Below, piece after piece: positions 5,459-25,691 of a stretch of 30,509 bases of DNA. The notes under the pieces were generated by a model. That model had not been told where the DNA came from. It ran no database searches and was given only the letters and a program-made list of their open reading frames with translations. The first letter of the stretch is position 1. The number at the start of each line of letters is the position of its first letter. The stretch spans positions 1 to 30,509 of IMG/VR virus record IMGVR_UViG_3300042332_000451; one strand, written 5' to 3'. Source of the DNA: a virus. The position numbers and the translations under genes are program-made.

Positions 5459-6271
5459 TTACTCCTTTAGTAAAATTTGTTTAACATTCTCAAACTTAGC
5501 AGAATCAAACATCTCCAAAACTTCTGAGTAGTTGTCAATTGCATAGTCTCTAAACCAACCAGAACATAGTGTAGTACAAATCTTATTAACTGACTTGTAA
5601 AACGCTAGTTTAGCTGGCGCTTCCCAATCGGTAGGTACTAAAAACCTTTCGGTTGAGATAACATAAGCTTCTTCTGCAATGCATCTAAGTTTGTCTGCAT
5701 GGCTTAGATTGTACCACAGATTTTTATCACACCATGCTAACTTTGAATCTTTTTGCAATTTTTTATACAAAGGCTCTTCACGATAAGCAAACAATTCGTG
5801 CAAGTAGTCATGATTATAAACCTTGGTCACTGCATCATCAAAGAAATCTTCCACTGTTTGCATCAAATTAGGATTACCTTGTGGATAAGCCGACATTGTA
5901 AGCTTAATGCGCTTATTTAGTACAGCTTCATCTTTATCTGTAAAGAATTCACGATAGGACTTTAAATGCTTATTGTATTGCGTCATGTGCTTTTCAAATT
6001 TACGATCACGCCACAAGTGACTGCGCTTTACAATTGCAAGACCAATAGGGTTAACAACGTAAACTCTTTGACCTCCGATTGTAATGTAGTGCGTACTGGC
6101 ATAATTCAATAGATCGTAGTTACCAATTGTATCGAACGTATGATTTTCAATACGCAAGGCACGATCTTGAATTTTATGTTCGCTAATAATATCCCAATCT
6201 GAATCAGGTCTTACTTTAAAAGTAGCACTCCAGTATTGCAATGCTTGGGAACCAATCAGTAGATTTTTCAT
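5459..6271 (-). CDS. Nucleotidyltransferase-fold protein (DUF7275-like)
   Basis: 270 aa. The N-terminus LLIGSQALQYW (G7, S8) followed by RPDSDWDII (D23-D27) has the hG[GS]...DxD layout of the DNA polymerase beta-type nucleotidyltransferase core; I recall phage proteins of this form as DUF7275. Members could transfer nucleotides to proteins, RNA or small molecules, but the substrate is unknown. The remainder is helical (KRSHLWRDRKFEKHM; LAWCDKNLWYNLSHADKLRC), with no other motif I recognise. The gene has its own promoter (6397-6426) and a leader of about 115 nt that holds a perfect 16-bp inverted repeat abutting the SD (TAAGGAGTAAAC). Position next to tRNA-like genes hints at an RNA substrate, which is only inference. 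Confidence 0.65.
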   Translation of the reverse strand: MKNLLIGSQALQYWSATFKVRPDSDWDIISEHKIQDRALRIENHTFDTIGNYDLLNYASTHYITIGGQRVYVVNPIGLAIVKRSHLWRDRKFEKHMTQYNKHLKSYREFFTDKDEAVLNKRIKLTMSAYPQGNPNLMQTVEDFFDDAVTKVYNHDYLHELFAYREEPLYKKLQKDSKLAWCDKNLWYNLSHADKLRCIAEEAYVISTERFLVPTDWEAPAKLAFYKSVNKICTTLCSGWFRDYAIDNYSEVLEMFDSAKFENVKQILLKE

Positions 6272-6674: not shown

Positions 6675-6787
6675 GGTGAAGCTGGAAGGACTTGAACCTT
6701 CGACCCGCCTAGTGCATATTTATCTAGAAAACGTAAACACTATCGACAGTAACCTGCCTATGACTCTACCAACTGAGTTACAGCTTC
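6675..6787 (-). tRNA. tRNA-like gene with about 38-nt excess in the central region, isotype undetermined
   Basis: The ends are canonical: acceptor GAAGCTG/CAGCTTC (7 bp), D arm ACTC-AGTTGGTA-GAGT with the GG pair, T arm GAAGG-TTCAAGT-CCTTC, discriminator A, then CCG instead of CCA. Between D stem and T stem are 61 nt instead of about 23. This part can form TAGTG/CACTA enclosing TTTA/TAAA. No ordinary 5-bp anticodon stem with U33 fits at the normal place; a weak arm with loop CTGTCGA (anticodon GTC) is one possibility. An insertion or intron-like element in a tRNA, or a pseudogene, are the options. Confidence 0.6.
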
Positions 6788-6792
6788 ATGAC

Positions 6793-6869
6793 TGGTGCGA
6801 GTGGAGGGATTCGAACCCCCGACCAATGGTGTAGAAGACCAGTGCTCTATCCAACTGAGCTACACTCGC
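6793..6869 (-). tRNA. tRNA-Arg (anticodon UCU)
   Basis: 77 nt with encoded CCA (6793-6795). Acceptor GCGAGTG/CACTCGC 7 bp; D arm GCTC-AGTTGGATA-GAGC; anticodon arm CTGGT-CTTCTAC-ACCAT with anticodon TCT at 6833-6835; T arm GGGGG-TTCGAAT-CCCTC. It reads AGA/AGG codons, which are rare in many proteobacterial hosts but used freely in AT-rich phage genes. It starts 10 nt after the stop of the NAMPT-like gene and is probably processed from the same transcript. Confidence 0.96.
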
Positions 6870-6879
6870 TTAACCTTAA

Positions 6880-8604
6880 TTATACCACAGTTTCAAGCTG
6901 CTGGTCAACTAATTTTCGAATTTCTTCAAGAGTTGTTTCTTTCACAAGAACGCCATCCTTGAATACTGTTTGCAAGCAACCTTGAGCTTCTTGCTCTTTT
7001 GTTTGCTGATCATAAAGGACGAAATTATCACCTTCACGTTCAACTCGCAATAGACCTTTGGCTGACTTTTTAGTTCCACCGTCTGTTACAGGGTCTTTAA
7101 ACAATTCAGTAGCTTGACCATTGATTTCAGCATAAGTAGCTTTCATAGCGAAACCATAGCTGTCACGGGTCACATACTGATATGTGTAAGAACCTACACC
7201 AAACACAACGTTACTGGATGCGAAACCTTTCTCTTTCAATCGGCGCAAAATATCTTGAGCACGTTCTAGAGTAATGGAATCACCATAAATCAAGCCTACA
7301 CGCTCATTGAGCATCTTGTAACCTTGAGCGTTGATTGTACCACCAAAAATATCCCACAAGCACTCTACGGCTCCTTTTTGTGCAGGTGTTAATTCAACTT
7401 CTTCAATCATTGGTGTATTCCAACCATCAATATAGTAATAAGTTTTATCGTGACGATTCCACTCTGGAAACACAGTAAAGTTATAGTACTTGTCTTTTAC
7501 TTTAACCACTTGAGTATAAGAAGAAGCTCCGCATTCATAAGCAGTCAAATCTTCATTTTCAGCCATAACACAATCTTGTACAAATAATTCGGCATCTTCC
7601 AGAGATTTGGCAACAATTACTTCAGTACCGCAAAGAATATCTGCAGGATCACCGCTGTCAGGACGGAATACAACTTTAGCTAGACCAATCTCGTTAGGTG
7701 TACGATCTAAAATTTCTTGCTTTAGATTCGCAGAAGTAACAGTCAGAGTGTGCCAGAAATCCCAAGTATCGCTAACAATACTCACTACACCAGAAGGATG
7801 TACTTCAGTGATCAAACGACGGAATGTTTCTTCTTCTGTCTCTTTACCACCAGCACACATTACAGAGTGCTCTGTAGCAGGGACTGAACCACCAACAAAC
7901 GTGTTTAGACCACCGTAGTAAGCTTCCAGATAGTCAATAGCTGGAATAGTGTCAGTACCAAGGAATGAAGCCAAGTGACCACTGGCACTAGATGCATCAG
8001 CAATACCACTTAGACCACGATAACTGAAGTCGTGACCTTGCCATAGAACAAAATCCAAAGGAGCACCAGTATCTTTAGCAAAACGAGTAAGAATTTTGCG
8101 GTATTCAAACGCAGTTGTTGCTGTAGTGATTTGCTTCCACAGTTCATTACTGAAGACTGTTTCCAGATAGTTAGTCAACCAGAAGAAATCAGGTAGTGTA
8201 TTTTTCACAGTAAGAACTGGAACTTTAATATCTACAAGAGAACCCTCTGGTAGAGCTTTGATTTCAATAGGCAAGTAACCTAGATCATGCAAAGCTGCAA
8301 TATGCAAAGCGTCTACTGAGCCTTGGCCTAGTGATGTATTCATGCGGCGATTGTATTTAGCAATGACTTCTTCTTTTGTGCGATTGAAAAAGTTCTCGTT
8401 AAATTGCTCAATCAAGAATGACTTGATGAAACCTTGCAAACCATAGAACAAAACTTTAGTTGGTTTATTGTCACCAGCACTTGGAGCTAGTTTGTTAGAG
8501 CGAGGTGTGAAGTTACTGTAGATAACTTCTGTACCTTTTGGGTACATAGCTTTGTGACCAACTTTATAGAAGTCACAAGCGGTGATTGGATCGATATAAG
8601 TCAT
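6880..8604 (-). CDS. NAMPT-like nicotinamide transferase (phosphoribosyl- or ADP-ribosyl-type)
   Basis: 574 aa, nicotinamide phosphoribosyltransferase fold. Conserved residues aligned to human NAMPT: D11 and Y13 (TACDFYKVGH), R196 (FSYRGLSG), D218 (GTDTIPA), H246 (VPATEHSV), R314 and D316 (FRPDSGDP), R480 (YVTRD), then FKDPVTDGG and SAKGLLRV. NAMPT makes NMN from nicotinamide and PRPP. In phages carrying NAD+ reconstitution pathway 1 a protein of this family (Namat) instead joins nicotinamide to ADP-ribose pyrophosphate, giving NAD+ in one step. Here it directly follows a PRPP-synthetase-like gene, as in that pathway. Compared with human NAMPT (491 aa) it has an extra segment at about residues 328-420. 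The human SGGG phosphate loop is VGSYTYQ here. Substrate is undecided from sequence alone. Confidence 0.9.
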   Translation of the reverse strand: MTYIDPITACDFYKVGHKAMYPKGTEVIYSNFTPRSNKLAPSAGDNKPTKVLFYGLQGFIKSFLIEQFNENFFNRTKEEVIAKYNRRMNTSLGQGSVDALHIAALHDLGYLPIEIKALPEGSLVDIKVPVLTVKNTLPDFFWLTNYLETVFSNELWKQITTATTAFEYRKILTRFAKDTGAPLDFVLWQGHDFSYRGLSGIADASSASGHLASFLGTDTIPAIDYLEAYYGGLNTFVGGSVPATEHSVMCAGGKETEEETFRRLITEVHPSGVVSIVSDTWDFWHTLTVTSANLKQEILDRTPNEIGLAKVVFRPDSGDPADILCGTEVIVAKSLEDAELFVQDCVMAENEDLTAYECGASSYTQVVKVKDKYYNFTVFPEWNRHDKTYYYIDGWNTPMIEEVELTPAQKGAVECLWDIFGGTINAQGYKMLNERVGLIYGDSITLERAQDILRRLKEKGFASSNVVFGVGSYTYQYVTRDSYGFAMKATYAEINGQATELFKDPVTDGGTKKSAKGLLRVEREGDNFVLYDQQTKEQEAQGCLQTVFKDGVLVKETTLEEIRKLVDQQLETVV

Positions 8605-8612
8605 AGTTCTCC

Positions 8613-9416
8613 TTAAATAACAGTTACAGATTCAGCTTCTTCAACCATCTTGTTCATCAGGTTGTGAACATAGATTGTATCATAGTATTTGTACAAATCG
8701 ACAACACCTTTAGAAAAAATTCCATGTGTTACGTACAGATTCAACTTACCAATGTTTGGTTGAGTACGGTCAAGCATTTCGGCCAAAGCAAGGAAAGTTG
8801 CTCCACCATCACAAAGATCGTCAACTACGCACACATCACCTTTGATTTTATCATAAGGAAAGTCCACATAGGTTACTTTTCCATCTTTGCGCTCTTTTAG
8901 GATTGTAAACACTGGAGTTTGAAACGCAGAAACTTGGTAGTGCGTAATTACTTTATCTTTGGCTCCTTTGTCTGGTGCAATCAATGCATCAAAGCGAGGA
9001 AGATATTTAGCGCACTCAGCTTGGGTTTTATTTTCAAAATAAGTTCCAAAGTAATCAAAGACTTTCAGAGATACATCACTGTGAGCATCAAAAGTGACAA
9101 GCTTACCAAACCGAGCAGTAGAAAGAATATTTGCGAATACACGCAATGCAAAACTTTCACCAGTAGAGCATACACGATCTTGCCGACCATAAGGAAGATA
9201 TGGCATGTACACATCAATATTAGTCCAAGAAATCTCTCGGGAGATAGCATCAATTAGATTTAAACACACGAATATGTCATCCGAAGTAGGCATAAGCGCC
9301 CAAATTTGCACTTTACTTTGTGCTTTAATTTCAGGGATTTGTACTCCAACTTCTCCAGCTGGAAATTTCCATTGCTTGAATGCAGTTTCAATTCCGTCAA
9401 CTTTTAGCTTAATCAT
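8613..9416 (-). CDS. PRPP-synthetase-like enzyme (possible ADP-ribose pyrophosphokinase, Adps)
   Basis: 267 aa, shorter than bacterial Prs (about 315). Family signatures: FPAGEVGVQIP (residues 18-28), YLPYGRQDR (R78, Q79, D80; ATP binding), FDAHSD (D110, H112; metal/ATP), and VVDDLCDGGATFLAL (D199, D200, D203), which stands for the ribose-5-phosphate loop. In ordinary Prs this loop reads DDxxDTGGT; here it is DDLCDGGAT. Canonical Prs makes PRPP from ribose-5-phosphate and ATP. The phage branch paired with a NAMPT-like protein includes Adps, which pyrophosphorylates ADP-ribose. The stop is 8 nt from the start of the NAMPT-like gene, with SD AAGGAG between, so the two are co-translated. The start overlaps the 64-aa gene by 8 nt. 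Confidence 0.88.
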   Translation of the reverse strand: MIKLKVDGIETAFKQWKFPAGEVGVQIPEIKAQSKVQIWALMPTSDDIFVCLNLIDAISREISWTNIDVYMPYLPYGRQDRVCSTGESFALRVFANILSTARFGKLVTFDAHSDVSLKVFDYFGTYFENKTQAECAKYLPRFDALIAPDKGAKDKVITHYQVSAFQTPVFTILKERKDGKVTYVDFPYDKIKGDVCVVDDLCDGGATFLALAEMLDRTQPNIGKLNLYVTHGIFSKGVVDLYKYYDTIYVHNLMNKMVEEAESVTVI

Positions 9417-9603
9417 TAGTTGTCCTTTCGTTTTGATTGTCAGATTGTAGCATAGAAAAACCTCTCAAGATGTTTTCTTTGATATTTAACCTAGCTAACT
9501 TGTTCAGATCATTTTGAGGCATAGACATGCTGGAGCGCAACATGCCTTTCTCATCGTACTGTTGAAGAGTTTGGTACTCTTTATTGTATTCGTATCGATT
9601 CAT
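9409..9603 (-). CDS. Hypothetical protein, 64 aa
   Basis: A small polar protein: NRYEYNKEYQTLQQYDEKGM then NDLNKLARLNIKENILRGF and a hydrophilic end QNERTTND. It probably forms a couple of helices. Its 3' end carries the SD (AAAGGAC) of the PRPP-synthetase-like gene, and its own start overlaps the stop of the HNH gene upstream, so it is embedded in the operon. I do not recognise a family. Confidence 0.65.
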   Translation of the reverse strand: MNRYEYNKEYQTLQQYDEKGMLRSSMSMPQNDLNKLARLNIKENILRGFSMLQSDNQNERTTND

Positions 9604-10058
9604 ACTACTCCTTTATGCTGCATAAGATATTGTAAAGCTTTTTTCAAGACCTCAACATCATCTTGTAAGAATCCTAAACCTCTGTTGCATAAGTTACAAA
9701 GAAGTCCTCGATTTTTTCCTGTTACATGATCATGGTCAACTGCAAAAGAAAGTAATCTACCATTATCAACTCCCTCTCCTGCAGGATTGTCTGTACCACA
9801 AATGGCACAACAATAATTTTGATCTTCAAGAATTTTTTCGTACTCTCCTAGTTCAAGGCCATATTTTAGCATGATCCAGCGCCTTTTATAACCTAACCAA
9901 GTGGGATTCTCCTTCTTAGGGATATTTCTATTTCTAGATATTCTTCTCGCTTTGTTATCACAAGTTTTACATCTATAACCAAAACCATCTTTCTCTCTTG
10001 AAGATTTGTAGAAATGTTCGTATTCCTTCTCTTCTTTGCATACTGTACATACTTTCAT
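9600..10058 (-). CDS. HNH endonuclease, recombination endonuclease VII type
   Basis: 152 aa from ATG at 10056-10058 (MKVCTVCKEEKEY), which overlaps the polymerase stop (TAATG). An in-frame ATG at 10067 and a TTG at 10076 are also possible starts. Two zinc motifs at the N-terminus (CTVC, CKTC) look like a DNA-binding ribbon. The catalytic module has CAIC, then VDHDHVTGKNRGLLCNLCN and GLGFLQDD, matching the endonuclease VII signature with its second zinc pair. Stand-alone proteins of this type are common intergenic insertions in phages and behave like homing endonucleases. Its position directly behind the DNA polymerase gene, a favourite homing target, fits that. It is unlike the zinc-less homologue at 1926-2426. 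Confidence 0.85.
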   Translation of the reverse strand: MKVCTVCKEEKEYEHFYKSSREKDGFGYRCKTCDNKARRISRNRNIPKKENPTWLGYKRRWIMLKYGLELGEYEKILEDQNYCCAICGTDNPAGEGVDNGRLLSFAVDHDHVTGKNRGLLCNLCNRGLGFLQDDVEVLKKALQYLMQHKGVV

Positions 10059-12355
10059 TAGTGACATTGCCCCCAACTTAAACCGGGTATATATTCAAAA
10101 CCTAGATTAACTCTGAGTTTTAGTTCCTCACAGGCTTTTTGAATACCTATTTCAATACATTCCACAGGTTGTGTTCTTAATCCAACATATGGCCCTTTTG
10201 AACCATGTCCAATAGCACTACAACCAACATTTGCTTTCACAAAATCCTTAGCTTCTTCCTCTGTGGCAAAGTTCTTAACTTGCATTAAGCTAGGATGGCA
10301 AGCCATTTGCTGTTCATCATGCATGTGAATCAACCACCAGACTTTCACATCCTTTTTAGTGTCTTTAAATGGATCACCAAGTATTCCACGCTCTTCCATT
10401 GCTTGAGCAAGTCTAACTGCAGACCACTTGGCTGAAATAGCACCACCAGACTGGAATAGAACGTTAATAAGGCTGTGTTTACTGCGAGTTGATAGCAACC
10501 TACCATCAAGTCCCGGAATGCTCTTCTTGCCACTTGCTTCCCATGTTGCCTCGACTTTTTCTTTCAGTTCTTTCAGTGCAGGTACAGCGTCCCAATAGTC
10601 ATTGAATAGACGTTGACCTTCATCTTCACTGATCCCAAGCATCTTGGACAGTTTCTTTGGTTGTGCTCCGTAAATAGCTGCATAGCTGAATGACTTTGCA
10701 GAGTTACGATCAATCCCAAGTTTACGTGCATTGATACTGTGAATATCATTAGGCTTTTCAGCAACCAAAGCTTCTGCCAATGCAGCACCATCCGTATATG
10801 GCAAAACATAGTGTCCCATTACTCGTGCCTCTAAAGAAGCGAAGTCGTAACCTAATTGCCACAAGCCTTTACCACAGCCAAAAAGATTACGCATTTGTTC
10901 ACCATATAGCGAAGTAACACGAGGAACGTTACACACAACCTTATGACGATAGCGACCAGTATTAGCACCTAGTGTATCTGCAGGAGTAGGAATACGTCCA
11001 TCTTCTCGCAATGCACTGATAAAGCCTGTCATTGGCTCACCATCTTCATCCAGTACACCACCAGCAATAGAGTTCTTACGGTGACGATACGTATAGTAAT
11101 GCACAACGTCTTTTACGAATTCTGCTTTCTGGCCAAGAGCGATCAGATTGGGACAGATTTCTTTTTCAACACCTACTGTCAATTTTGGTGTAGTTGGCAG
11201 ATAGATCGGCTTTGTACCATTGATTTTCTTCATCAAGAATGCACGTAGATTTTCCATCTTAACGTCCAGTAAATCCAAGCGCAATTCACGGAATACAGAC
11301 GTTTCTGTCTGCTTTACATAACGATCAATAGCTACAATAATTTCTTCATAGTTACGAGCAGTTTTATCTTGCTTCTTGACAATATCACGTTCCTTAACTT
11401 CCGAAGGAACCCAACCCAATGAAATCAGATAGCCTTTAACCACATCAATATCTTCAATATCAGCGTCAGTTTCAAACTTCAAAGGTTCATCAGTAGTAAT
11501 TGGGAATGCCTTACCTTCAAAGGTAATCGTGCTGTGATCTTCTGAAATTATAGCATTGTGCTTTTCACAGAATTTTAGCAAGTGAGCAGACAATTCACCA
11601 TTCTTTTTAAAACGCACCTTAGGCATCTGGTACTTACCAGCTTCGACTTGGGACATGCGTTTTTTAGGTAGCAATGGGTCTACTGTCTTAGCAATATTTT
11701 GCATAAGCTCAGTAAGTTCTGCTAAGTTCTTTTCAGCCAAAGCTAGATTGAAATCGAAACCAAACAATTCTTGACGCAAAGTAAGATCGGTAAGTTTAAT
11801 CTCTACAGAATAAGGTTTGGACCAATTGTGCTTACCTTGCTCTTTGAGTAGTTGCTCAAGAATAGAAGCGTTTACGCTAGTGTCTTGGATACAGTAATCC
11901 AGCATCTCTTGAGAGTAGCGATCCCACTCTTCAAAATGCGTTTTGTTATTGCCAAGACGTTTACCCCATGCATCAAGACTGTGACCACCAAGGCGATCAG
12001 CATTGAGTAGTTTAGACCATAGCAAAGTGTCTGTGATAGTTACAGGATTACCGAACAAAGTACTAGGTTGACCGGGATAGCCAATACGATAGTCTAAAAC
12101 ACCGTACAGCATAAGCACAGGTAAGTCGAAAGCAACAATATTGTGACCGATAAGCTCAGTGCAATCAGCCAAGATGCGGCTGAGATTCTTGGACGTAATC
12201 TCTTCTTTAACCAAAGAAACGACAGCTTTAGTATCGAGATTGCGAATTACTACACACCAGACTTTGTAGTCAGGCTTGAGTTTATAAGGCATAGAAGAGT
12301 AGTCCAGACCGTTCTGCAACAAGTTGGTACTCTCAATGTCGATGATGTAACGCAT
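10058..12355 (-). CDS. DNA polymerase, family A with 3'-5' exonuclease (T7 gp5 type)
   Basis: 765 aa. Proofreading domain: ExoI DIEST (D6, E8), ExoII HNIVAFD (N72, D77), ExoIII YCIQD (Y154, D158). Polymerase domain: motif A GYDFASLEAR (D504), motif B RNSAKSFSYAAIYG (R550, K554, Y558, Y562) and motif C HMHDEQQ (H679, D680, E681). Tyr at position 558 corresponds to Tyr526 of T7 polymerase, the residue linked to poor discrimination against dideoxynucleotides. Length exceeds T7 gp5 (704 aa), with extra sequence between exonuclease and polymerase domains (about 190-430). Start ATG has GGAAGGAAGAT in front. A terminator hairpin lies between it and the primase-helicase gene, so expression relies on read-through or the weak overlapping promoter at 12383-12411. 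Confidence 0.97.
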   Translation of the reverse strand: MRYIIDIESTNLLQNGLDYSSMPYKLKPDYKVWCVVIRNLDTKAVVSLVKEEITSKNLSRILADCTELIGHNIVAFDLPVLMLYGVLDYRIGYPGQPSTLFGNPVTITDTLLWSKLLNADRLGGHSLDAWGKRLGNNKTHFEEWDRYSQEMLDYCIQDTSVNASILEQLLKEQGKHNWSKPYSVEIKLTDLTLRQELFGFDFNLALAEKNLAELTELMQNIAKTVDPLLPKKRMSQVEAGKYQMPKVRFKKNGELSAHLLKFCEKHNAIISEDHSTITFEGKAFPITTDEPLKFETDADIEDIDVVKGYLISLGWVPSEVKERDIVKKQDKTARNYEEIIVAIDRYVKQTETSVFRELRLDLLDVKMENLRAFLMKKINGTKPIYLPTTPKLTVGVEKEICPNLIALGQKAEFVKDVVHYYTYRHRKNSIAGGVLDEDGEPMTGFISALREDGRIPTPADTLGANTGRYRHKVVCNVPRVTSLYGEQMRNLFGCGKGLWQLGYDFASLEARVMGHYVLPYTDGAALAEALVAEKPNDIHSINARKLGIDRNSAKSFSYAAIYGAQPKKLSKMLGISEDEGQRLFNDYWDAVPALKELKEKVEATWEASGKKSIPGLDGRLLSTRSKHSLINVLFQSGGAISAKWSAVRLAQAMEERGILGDPFKDTKKDVKVWWLIHMHDEQQMACHPSLMQVKNFATEEEAKDFVKANVGCSAIGHGSKGPYVGLRTQPVECIEIGIQKACEELKLRVNLGFEYIPGLSWGQCH

Positions 12356-16797: not shown

Positions 16798-17000
16798 TTG
16801 TACATCTCCTTTAAGTTACCATCTGCATCGTAATATGGACGACCCTCGTGAATAGCTAACAACAGTGTTTGAATTCTGTTGGCTAAATGCAAGTCTCTGT
16901 CTGAGACTACATATCCTGCATTATACAGTAAAGATTTGATTGCAGCTAGACGACTAACAGCATCTTCAAAATTATCTTTATAGTGCATGGATGCGCTCAT
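16794..17000 (-). CDS. Hypothetical protein, 68 aa
   Basis: Helical protein: DNFEDAVSRLAAIKSLLYNA, then GYVVSDRDLHLANRIQTLLL and EGRPYYDADGNLKEMYK. The first ATG (17000) overlaps the upstream gene by 23 nt; an internal ATG at 16988 (MHYKDNFED) is an alternative and neither has a strong SD. The 3' end holds the SD for the 45-aa gene. Family not recognised. Confidence 0.65.
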   Translation of the reverse strand: MSASMHYKDNFEDAVSRLAAIKSLLYNAGYVVSDRDLHLANRIQTLLLAIHEGRPYYDADGNLKEMYK

Positions 17001-17388
17001 TTCGATAAGCTAACTCTTGTTTCATCAAGTCCTCTACGTAAGTTCCATTGATGTGCTGTTGAGTATCAAGTATAGCATTGATATGATCAGTTTCCATATC
17101 TTGTAGAGCAATATATTTACCCTCTGGTAGATACTCACCATTTTTACCATAAGATTTCCACACAAAAGCTTCACGAATAGCTTTAAAAGGATCACTTAGG
17201 TATACATCCATAAATGTAGGAAGTGTTGTATTAAAGCTACGGCGCAAGTAATCATTACCACCATCTACAATGTAGATTTCACCTGATACCTTATCTCGGT
17301 GCTCTTTGTAATCATGTCGGTGGTAGCTACGCAGGTATGTACCATCCGGTGTAATGATAGCATTACAAATAATTTGTTCATTCATCAT
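16978..17388 (-). CDS. Hypothetical protein with RSYHRHDYKEH motif, about 136 aa
   Basis: The start chosen is ATG at 17386-17388 (MMNEQIICNAIITP), 8 nt after GGAG; ATGs at 17394 and 17385 are close alternatives. A longer frame reaching to 17454 would overlap the 50-aa gene and lacks an SD. Distinct stretches: AIITPDGTYLRSYHRHDYKE, EIYIVDGGNDYLRRSFN, and then DPFKAIREAFVWKSYGKNGE, GKYIALQDMETDHINAIL. This combination is a recurrent phage protein of unknown function, in which ITPDGT-LRSYHRHDY forms the conserved N-terminus. Confidence 0.75.
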   Translation of the reverse strand: MMNEQIICNAIITPDGTYLRSYHRHDYKEHRDKVSGEIYIVDGGNDYLRRSFNTTLPTFMDVYLSDPFKAIREAFVWKSYGKNGEYLPEGKYIALQDMETDHINAILDTQQHINGTYVEDLMKQELAYRNERIHAL

Positions 17389-24053: not shown

Positions 24054-24217
24054 AAAAGAAATTTTGGATTGTGTATTGGTCTGATTCAAGTGGTTACACT
24101 GAGTTTGTAGAACTGTGGACTACCGAGCATCAAGCACAAATTGCAGCTGAAAAATATCAAGACTCTCATGGTGATACAATTCTTTACACTTATGAAGAAA
24201 TTGAGGTAATGAAATGA
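24050..24217 (+). CDS. Small hypothetical protein, 55 aa
   Basis: ATG at 24050 with AAGGGGAAAGAA; a longer frame from 23981 would overlap the preceding gene heavily and is not favoured. Product: MKKKFWIVYWSDSSGYTEFV, ELWTTEHQAQIAAEKYQDSH, GDTILYTYEEIEVMK. Beta-alpha-beta appearance. Stop overlaps the next start (ATGA). Confidence 0.65.
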   Translation: MKKKFWIVYWSDSSGYTEFVELWTTEHQAQIAAEKYQDSHGDTILYTYEEIEVMK

Positions 24218-24783
24218 AAGTATTTACTAGTGATTTGCACCACGAACATCGTAGAATTGTTGAATTCACTAATCGTGGCAAGGATACTACACAACAACGT
24301 CACACTGATTGGCTAGTCAACCTCTGGAATAGAAATGTAGATAAAGGTGATGTATGCTATCATCTTGGAGATTTTTCTTTTGCTAAAGACTATGAATCAA
24401 TTCGATCTTTTGTAAAAGCATTGAATGGTACGAAGATTCTTATCAAAGGTAATCATGATAAACGGGAATACCTAGATCAACTTGTAAGAGATCAATTAAT
24501 CACTGCATGGTATGATTACAAAGAAATCAAGATTGCTGATAAATCAGTAGTGCTATTTCACTACCCTATTTCAAGCTGGCATAAGCAAGGCTATGGTTCA
24601 TTGCATTTGCATGGACATTGCCACGGAAATCATGCAGATAGTATGGGTAAAATGCTTGACGTAGGGCTGGATTCAGCATATAATCTGTATAAGGAACACC
24701 GCTTCTTTACGGAGGATGATGTTCTAGACCTAATGCAATATAAATCAGTGCATGTTGCTGATCACCACAAGGAGTATAAATGA
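24214..24783 (+). CDS. Calcineurin-like metallophosphoesterase
   Basis: 189 aa with all metallophosphatase motifs: SDLHHEH (D7, H9), YHLGDFSF (G52, D53), IKGNHDKR (N80, H81, D82), LFHYP (H116) and LHGHCHGN (H133, H135). The small single-domain form occurs widely in phages; substrates range from phosphoproteins to cyclic 2',3'-phosphate ends. Four genes downstream of the kinase-ligase pair, it may supply the end-healing phosphatase missing from the kinase; this is inference. ATGA overlaps on both sides. Confidence 0.92.
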   Translation: MKVFTSDLHHEHRRIVEFTNRGKDTTQQRHTDWLVNLWNRNVDKGDVCYHLGDFSFAKDYESIRSFVKALNGTKILIKGNHDKREYLDQLVRDQLITAWYDYKEIKIADKSVVLFHYPISSWHKQGYGSLHLHGHCHGNHADSMGKMLDVGLDSAYNLYKEHRFFTEDDVLDLMQYKSVHVADHHKEYK

Positions 24784-25691
24784 TTGAAGTAAAAATTATC
24801 AAAGATAGTTACAATATTGAAATGCGTTCAAGGCTAACTACATTTGAGTTAGTCTATCCTCGTTTCATTCACGGTGAGCTAATGACGCATCGTATGTTTA
24901 GTCGCAATGCTGCAAGTTCTCGGGCAATCCCTATCGATAAGGTAATTGAGCTACTGCAGACAAATCCAGCTATGCCTGTGCATTGGGGTAAGAATCAAGC
25001 AGGGATGCAAGCTAATGTTGAGATTGACAACATCGAAGGTGCAAAACTTCTATGGTTAGCTGCTCGTGATAGTGCCATTAATCACGCTATTGTCATGCGA
25101 GATATGGGACTGCACAAACAGATCGTTAATCGTGTTCTAGAGCCTTACCAGCTTATGAAGACAATTATTACAGCTACTGAGCTTAATAACTGGTTTTGGT
25201 TACGTGCTCATGCAGATGCACAACCAGAAATTAGAGAGCTTGCAGAAAAAATGCTTCTGGCTTATGATGAATCAGAACCAATTGCACTATATAAAGATGA
25301 ATGGCATGTACCATATGTAAATACTCAACGTAGTCGAAATACTTTTGAATTATTCTACATCGATGAAAATGACAAATACATCACTGCAGAAGAAGCACGT
25401 ATGATCAGTGCCAGTTGCTGTGCTCAGGTCAGCTATCGTAAGAACGATGGAAGCCTAGAGAAGGCTGAGATGGTTTTTGATCGCTTAATTAATTCAGTAC
25501 CAGTGCATGCTAGTCCAGTCGAACATATTGCTACACCGATTACAAAAGAGGATATCTATCGTGCTATGGAGCCTGAAGCAGAACCTGAAGGTATTACACA
25601 CGTTGATATTAATGGTCAACCTTGGTCAGGTAATCTACGTGGATGGGTTCAGTTTCGACAACTCATTCCAAACAATGTAAAGGAAGGTTAA
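24780..25691 (+). CDS. thyX: FAD-dependent thymidylate synthase ThyX
   Basis: 303 aa. The ThyX motif region is MTHRMFSRNAASSRAIP (residues 35-51), a variant of RHRxxSxNExSxR. It continues with VLEPYQLMKTIITATELNNW, FWLRAHADAQPEIRELAEKM (FAD/dUMP binding), and a C-terminal SPVEHIATP...GNLRGWVQFR as in large phage ThyX proteins. It makes dTMP from dUMP using methylene-THF and NADPH/FAD; dUMP would come from the dCMP deaminase at 20751-21197. The first Arg of the canonical motif is Thr-His here, common in this subfamily. Confidence 0.92.
   Translation: MIEVKIIKDSYNIEMRSRLTTFELVYPRFIHGELMTHRMFSRNAASSRAIPIDKVIELLQTNPAMPVHWGKNQAGMQANVEIDNIEGAKLLWLAARDSAINHAIVMRDMGLHKQIVNRVLEPYQLMKTIITATELNNWFWLRAHADAQPEIRELAEKMLLAYDESEPIALYKDEWHVPYVNTQRSRNTFELFYIDENDKYITAEEARMISASCCAQVSYRKNDGSLEKAEMVFDRLINSVPVHASPVEHIATPITKEDIYRAMEPEAEPEGITHVDINGQPWSGNLRGWVQFRQLIPNNVKEG

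Follow-up and report, generated by a model that had tools for sequence, protein, structure and literature searches.

To clarify whether two adjoining genes of a freshwater phage form a NARP1 operon or an ordinary PRPP/NMN pathway, we analyzed the 30,509-bp IMG/VR virus record in which they lie (the window in the following), which is probably a fragment rather than a whole genome. Both genes are on the minus strand, the first being Prs-like and the second NAMPT-like, and they are named here after the NARP1 components Adps and Namat.

Layout of the gene pair

As had been described before, a NAMPT-like gene follows a Prs-like gene after 8 nt, and both open reading frames were recovered at the positions given in Table 1. 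Shine-Dalgarno-like sequences (AAGGA/AAGGAG) can be read close 5' of the Adps start and of the Namat start, and the order Adps then Namat is common to nearly all relatives surveyed. The NAMPT-like protein gave strong matches in Pfam, PHROGs (phrog_448 nicotinamide phosphoribosyl transferase, E = 1e-196) and NCBIfam, and the Prs-like protein matched phrog_619 ribose-phosphate pyrophosphokinase (E = 6e-61). The catalytic residues are kept in both proteins, as had been claimed earlier. The dN/dS values against three related phages, 0.05–0.14 for Namat and 0.12–0.23 for Adps, point to clear purifying selection on both genes. Promoter and terminator scans gave matches at chance level only, and no convincing repeats flanking the cassette were found.

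Table 1: Features of the cassette and its surroundings in the window.
Feature	Position	Strand	Basis
64-aa ORF, end overlaps Adps start; synteny anchor	9409..9603	-	84% over 45 aa to DC31
Adps (ADP-ribose pyrophosphate synthetase), Prs fold, 267 aa	8613..9416	-	phrog_619, trees, AF2 and Foldseek
Substrate-phosphate loop DDLCDGGATF, codons of residues 199-208	8793..8822	-	conservation in Adps
Intergenic gap, 8 nt, GGAGAACT, after TAA stop; carries Namat ribosome-binding site	8605..8612	-	sequence
Namat (nicotinamide ADP-ribose transferase), 574 aa	6880..8604	-	PDB match, Foldseek, Namat clade
Namat insertion of about 80 aa, codons of residues 327-408	7381..7626	-	phmmer alignment breaks there
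Adenine selectivity-clamp helix motif GSYTYQYVTRD, codons of residues 471-481	7162..7194	-	Namat consensus match
tRNA-Arg (tct), close 3' of Namat	6793..6869	-	ARAGORN, Rfam 70.5 bits
DUF7275 gene, second synteny anchor, 3' of the cassette	5459..6271	-	Pfam, 61% to DC31

Relationship of both proteins to true Prs and NAMPT

Against TIGR01251 (Prs) the Adps ORF reached 97 bits and thus stays below the curated cut-off of 113, which was passed by all 14 control genomes. Its AF2 model (pLDDT 95.5) found PRPP synthetases in Foldseek with TM values of 0.7–0.8. The preliminary description had pointed out that the loop DDLCDGGAT departs from DTGGT. The departure is indeed present, but it is no oddity, being the usual Adps loop: among 50 Adps homologues D199, D200 and T207 are invariant and C202, D203, G204, G205 and F208 are conserved to at least 90%. 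In genomes where the loop pattern was recovered, to which this comparison is confined, true Prs show DD(M/L)IDTG(G/R)T, whereas DDICDGG.TF is the pattern of their ten Adps paralogues. Both true Prs and Adps were present in 10 of the 12 bacterial genomes searched, the other two, both Pasteurellaceae, having only Prs. The DDLCDGGATF-type loop is not universal among Adps, as the characterised Adps of SPbetaL1 has DDLSSFGGTF.

In a tree of 71 rows the Adps ORF is located deep inside the NARP1 clade and apart from true Prs, and a smaller, more careful tree separates it from 13 true Prs with a support of 100/100. Forcing it to group with Prs lowered the log-likelihood by 36 units and was rejected (AU p = 0.00017). 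Thus none of the marks of a canonical PRPP synthetase, namely the TIGR01251 cut-off, the DTGGT loop and grouping with Prs, was found for this protein. A viral scan with Adps alone returned a single relative because Adps diverges too fast for such a search, and Adps neighbours were instead found by profile around Namat matches.

For Namat the best PDB match was the SPbetaL1 Namat 9w5x with 523 bits, followed by NadV from H. ducreyi (9ke8, 470 bits) and human NAMPT (249 bits). A Foldseek search with the AlphaFold2 model (pLDDT 90.6) gave the same order, with 9w5x/9w5w from SPbetaL1 on top (1e-59 vs 1e-43 for human NAMPT). According to Lan et al. (2026, PMC12774641), the Namat clamp helix follows the consensus GSX(T/S)X(Q/N)X(N/V)TRD, in which the third and seventh residues are aromatic. 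GSYTYQYVTRD in the window Namat is an exact fit: F392, Y396, T398, R399 and D400 of SPbetaL1 correspond to Y473, Y477, T479, R480 and D481. Positions 190, 362 and 391, which are glycine in human NAMPT, are S194, S443 and S472 here. All catalytic positions (SPbetaL1 numbering) are conserved, and the non-catalytic changes from SPbetaL1 are conservative (R40 to K38, F392 to Y473, A362 to S443). The clamp-loop (SCL) residue K38 falls within the Arg/Lys/Tyr set, but human NAMPT has Lys as well, so that this position does not tell the two enzyme types apart; Lys is the second commonest clamp-loop residue in Adps-linked Namats. Where it is Lys, Lan et al. give the stacking role to the next residue (PMC12774641), which is the non-aromatic L39 here, leaving the K38/L39 loop without an obvious aromatic for stacking.

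The Namat ORF also lies deep inside the NARP1 clade in the tree of 71 rows, where it groups with the known Namats of SPbetaL1 and ICP1 and not with the NAMPTs of human and phages, and the smaller tree separates the clade from these NAMPTs with a support of 100/100. Forcing the window Namat to group with NAMPTs cost 35 log-likelihood units and is disfavoured by a moderate test (AU p = 0.011). The same clade contains SPbetaL1, ICP1 NrsAB and mycobacteriophage Thibault, the last as a stand-in for a mycobacteriophage pair that makes NAD+ together with RyDEP (PMC13232231). A RyDEP-type partner (PF02026) gave no match in the window or its kin, but none in the control genomes either. Both proteins therefore cluster with Adps and Namat and not with bona fide Prs and NAMPT, and the trees, the exact clamp motif and the Adps loop together support the preliminary description, which had proposed NARP1 rather than a PRPP/NMN pathway.

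Comparison with known systems and genomic context

The NARP1 pair of Bacillus phage SPbetaL1 (PDB 9w5w/9w5x) resembles the window pair in gene order, active sites, clamp (GS[FY]TYQY.TRD) and fold, but differs in the Adps loop, in the clamp-loop residue (Arg instead of Lys) and in having no 80-aa insertion. In NrsAB of Vibrio phage ICP1, which counters the NAD-depleting system Nezha (PMC11559045), Adps is adjacent and the clamp GSYTYQYVTRD is identical, whereas the Adps loop is DDICDGAASF and a spacer of 25 residues takes the place of the long insertion. The same pair and motifs were also found in Ackermannviridae, Felixounavirus, Pakpunavirus and actinobacteriophages (e.g. Magnus, VSe11, Adele, Thibault), whose Namats are about 50% identical to the window Namat or less, and in some of these phages extra genes lie between Adps and Namat, such as an HNH gene in VSe11 and a small ORF in Adele. 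Human NAMPT and the NAMPTs of phages nt-1, Slopekvirus KP1 and AS4 share fold and catalytic core with the window Namat but possess neither the clamp nor an adjacent Adps and are located outside the NARP1 clade.

The insertion in the window Namat directly follows the active-site RPDSGDP loop and is missing from SPbetaL1 Namat and human NAMPT. In the model it forms a helix plus beta-strands, though with lower confidence. Across the family the spacer at this site varies from 18 to 104 residues, and a long insertion also occurs in some Namats of several of the phage lineages named above. As the spacer is short in SPbetaL1 and ICP1, the insertion is not needed for the pathway. It might add a function of its own, such as sensing, docking of Adps or shielding against a host inhibitor, but we consider this unlikely.

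In a survey of 128 loci the aromatic clamp and an adjacent Adps were both present in 89 and both absent in 19, with 20 discordant (agreement 108/128). The rows are related and shared ancestry inflates p, so that the Fisher p is indicative only and the result should be read as a pattern, not as a test. The Pasteurellaceae NadV group, including H. ducreyi NadV as the second-best match to the window Namat by fold and sequence, is nested in the Namat clade but has no adjacent Adps, has lost both clamp aromatics and carries the NAMPT-type glycine at position 362; H. ducreyi NadV yields NMN in E. coli (PMC6095924). From their sequences these enzymes (L110–L125, L136–L138) appear to have arisen from Namat after loss of the Adps partner and the adenine clamp, which would be a switch from an NAD+-making back to an NMN-making enzyme. 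Adps and Namat-motif genes were also seen in bacterial loci from Acinetobacter (L001, L082, L085), Hydromonas (L084) and Formosimonas (L086). In L001, a record labelled as Acinetobacter phage but chromosomal in appearance, they adjoin an NMN adenylyltransferase-Nudix gene, and the annotation as NadV salvage may be doubtful there.

Six related contigs (L018–L023) carry the same pair in the same order, with Namats 72–95% identical, upstream of the same DUF7275 gene and usually with a tRNA-Arg. In Limnohabitans phage DC31 the replication region is collinear with that of the window, but the cassette site is occupied by a 94-aa HNH-like gene; Namat is missing there, the tRNA-Arg is not annotated either, and no Adps match was found in the whole 76 kb of this phage. 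As the cassette is kept at the same place in close relatives and is missing from collinear DC31, its presence varies within this phage group, as expected of a counter-defence module. Judging from the collinearity with DC31, the probable host is Limnohabitans or another closely related freshwater bacterium.

Several further observations concern the surroundings of the cassette. The window encodes a family A DNA polymerase (10058–12355) and endonuclease VII (9600–10076), whereas the two genes of DC31 at L017:14680–16866 and 16871–17356 are unrelated to these, the first coding for a 728-aa protein that weakly matches a PolB-type exonuclease. L022 also is without the window-type polymerase, and it looks like the replicative polymerase has been swapped at a fixed place in otherwise collinear phages. 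A tRNA-like element at 6677–6787 (minus strand; Rfam 43 bits) has good acceptor, D and T arms with about 53 nt replacing the anticodon arm and was not called by ARAGORN in the window, although a tRNA-Arg(acg) of 102 nt was called at a comparable position in L023. Between this element and the DUF7275 gene lies a perfect 16-nt inverted repeat (6284–6299/6362–6377, spacer 62 nt). At 24214–24783 (plus strand) a phrog_547 phosphoesterase without Pfam match adjoins a ThyX-type thymidylate synthase (24780–25691).

Proposed pathway and alternatives

We estimate a probability of about 0.93 that the gene pair is a complete NARP1 operon acting against NAD+ depletion, the reactions and the anti-defence role being assigned by analogy with characterised relatives. 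During infection a host defence NADase (TIR, SIR2, SEFIR etc.) would cleave NAD+ into ADP-ribose and nicotinamide. Adps would then use ATP to add pyrophosphate to ADP-ribose, giving ADPR-PP, which Namat would join with nicotinamide to NAD+ in a single step, so that an NMN adenylyltransferase would not be needed. In agreement with the earlier statement that no such gene is nearby, PF01467 gave no match in the window, and none in the complete genome of DC31 or in 13 related records from IMG/VR, while all controls matched. NARP2 or phage NadV-NadM salvage was rejected, as a phage-encoded NMN adenylyltransferase was found neither in the fragment represented by the window nor in these 14 records. 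Also rejected was a marginal PADLOC match to ShosT (E = 0.004) over the phosphoribosyl loop, which we judged to be a fold-level echo.

That the genes are instead an ordinary Prs and NAMPT pair, with PRPP being turned into NMN and a host NMN adenylyltransferase completing NAD+ as in NARP2 or simple salvage, would agree with the shared folds and core catalytic residues, and an Acinetobacter-type homologue does adjoin an NMNAT-Nudix gene. Wild-type Namat still turns PRPP and nicotinamide into NMN with about half the activity of human NAMPT (PMC12774641), and it is therefore possible that the window Namat has a dual role, making NAD+ from ADPR-PP and NMN from PRPP. Against an ordinary pair stand the Prs-like protein, which fails the cut-off reached by 14 of 14 control genomes, is without DTGGT loop and clusters with Adps, the full adenine clamp, which is missing in NMN-making NadV and NAMPTs, and the lack of an NMNAT in the window, its kin and DC31. 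We regard this alternative as very improbable and rejected canonical Prs/NAMPT salvage in view of trees, loop, clamp and profile cut-off.

It is also unlikely, though less so, that a genuine Adps–Namat pair is mainly of benefit because it recycles NAD+ generally during infection and not because of counter-defence. Bacterial NARP1 modules with unclear physiology exist (PMC12774641), and bacterial loci were found here as well, but presence or absence between collinear phages is typical of accessory counter-defence genes and the homologous pair of ICP1 costs fitness where defence is absent (PMC11559045). Only the long Namat insertion would speak for a decayed or non-functional remnant, and with intact frames, complete catalytic residues, dN/dS of 0.05–0.23 and confident models we see hardly any chance for it.

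In summary, NARP1 is already known from many phages and the window pair is a clear and well-supported further example, ordinary in kind, that is useful as a reference case. With it, NARP1 is extended to uncultivated phages whose clade is related to a Limnohabitans phage from freshwater, and DC31 offers a matched relative without the cassette for comparison. Furthermore, the survey shows how Namats that use ADPR-PP can be told by sequence from NadV enzymes that make NMN, the latter serving as internal negative control, and this helps to mend the routine annotation of Adps and Namat genes as Prs and Nampt.
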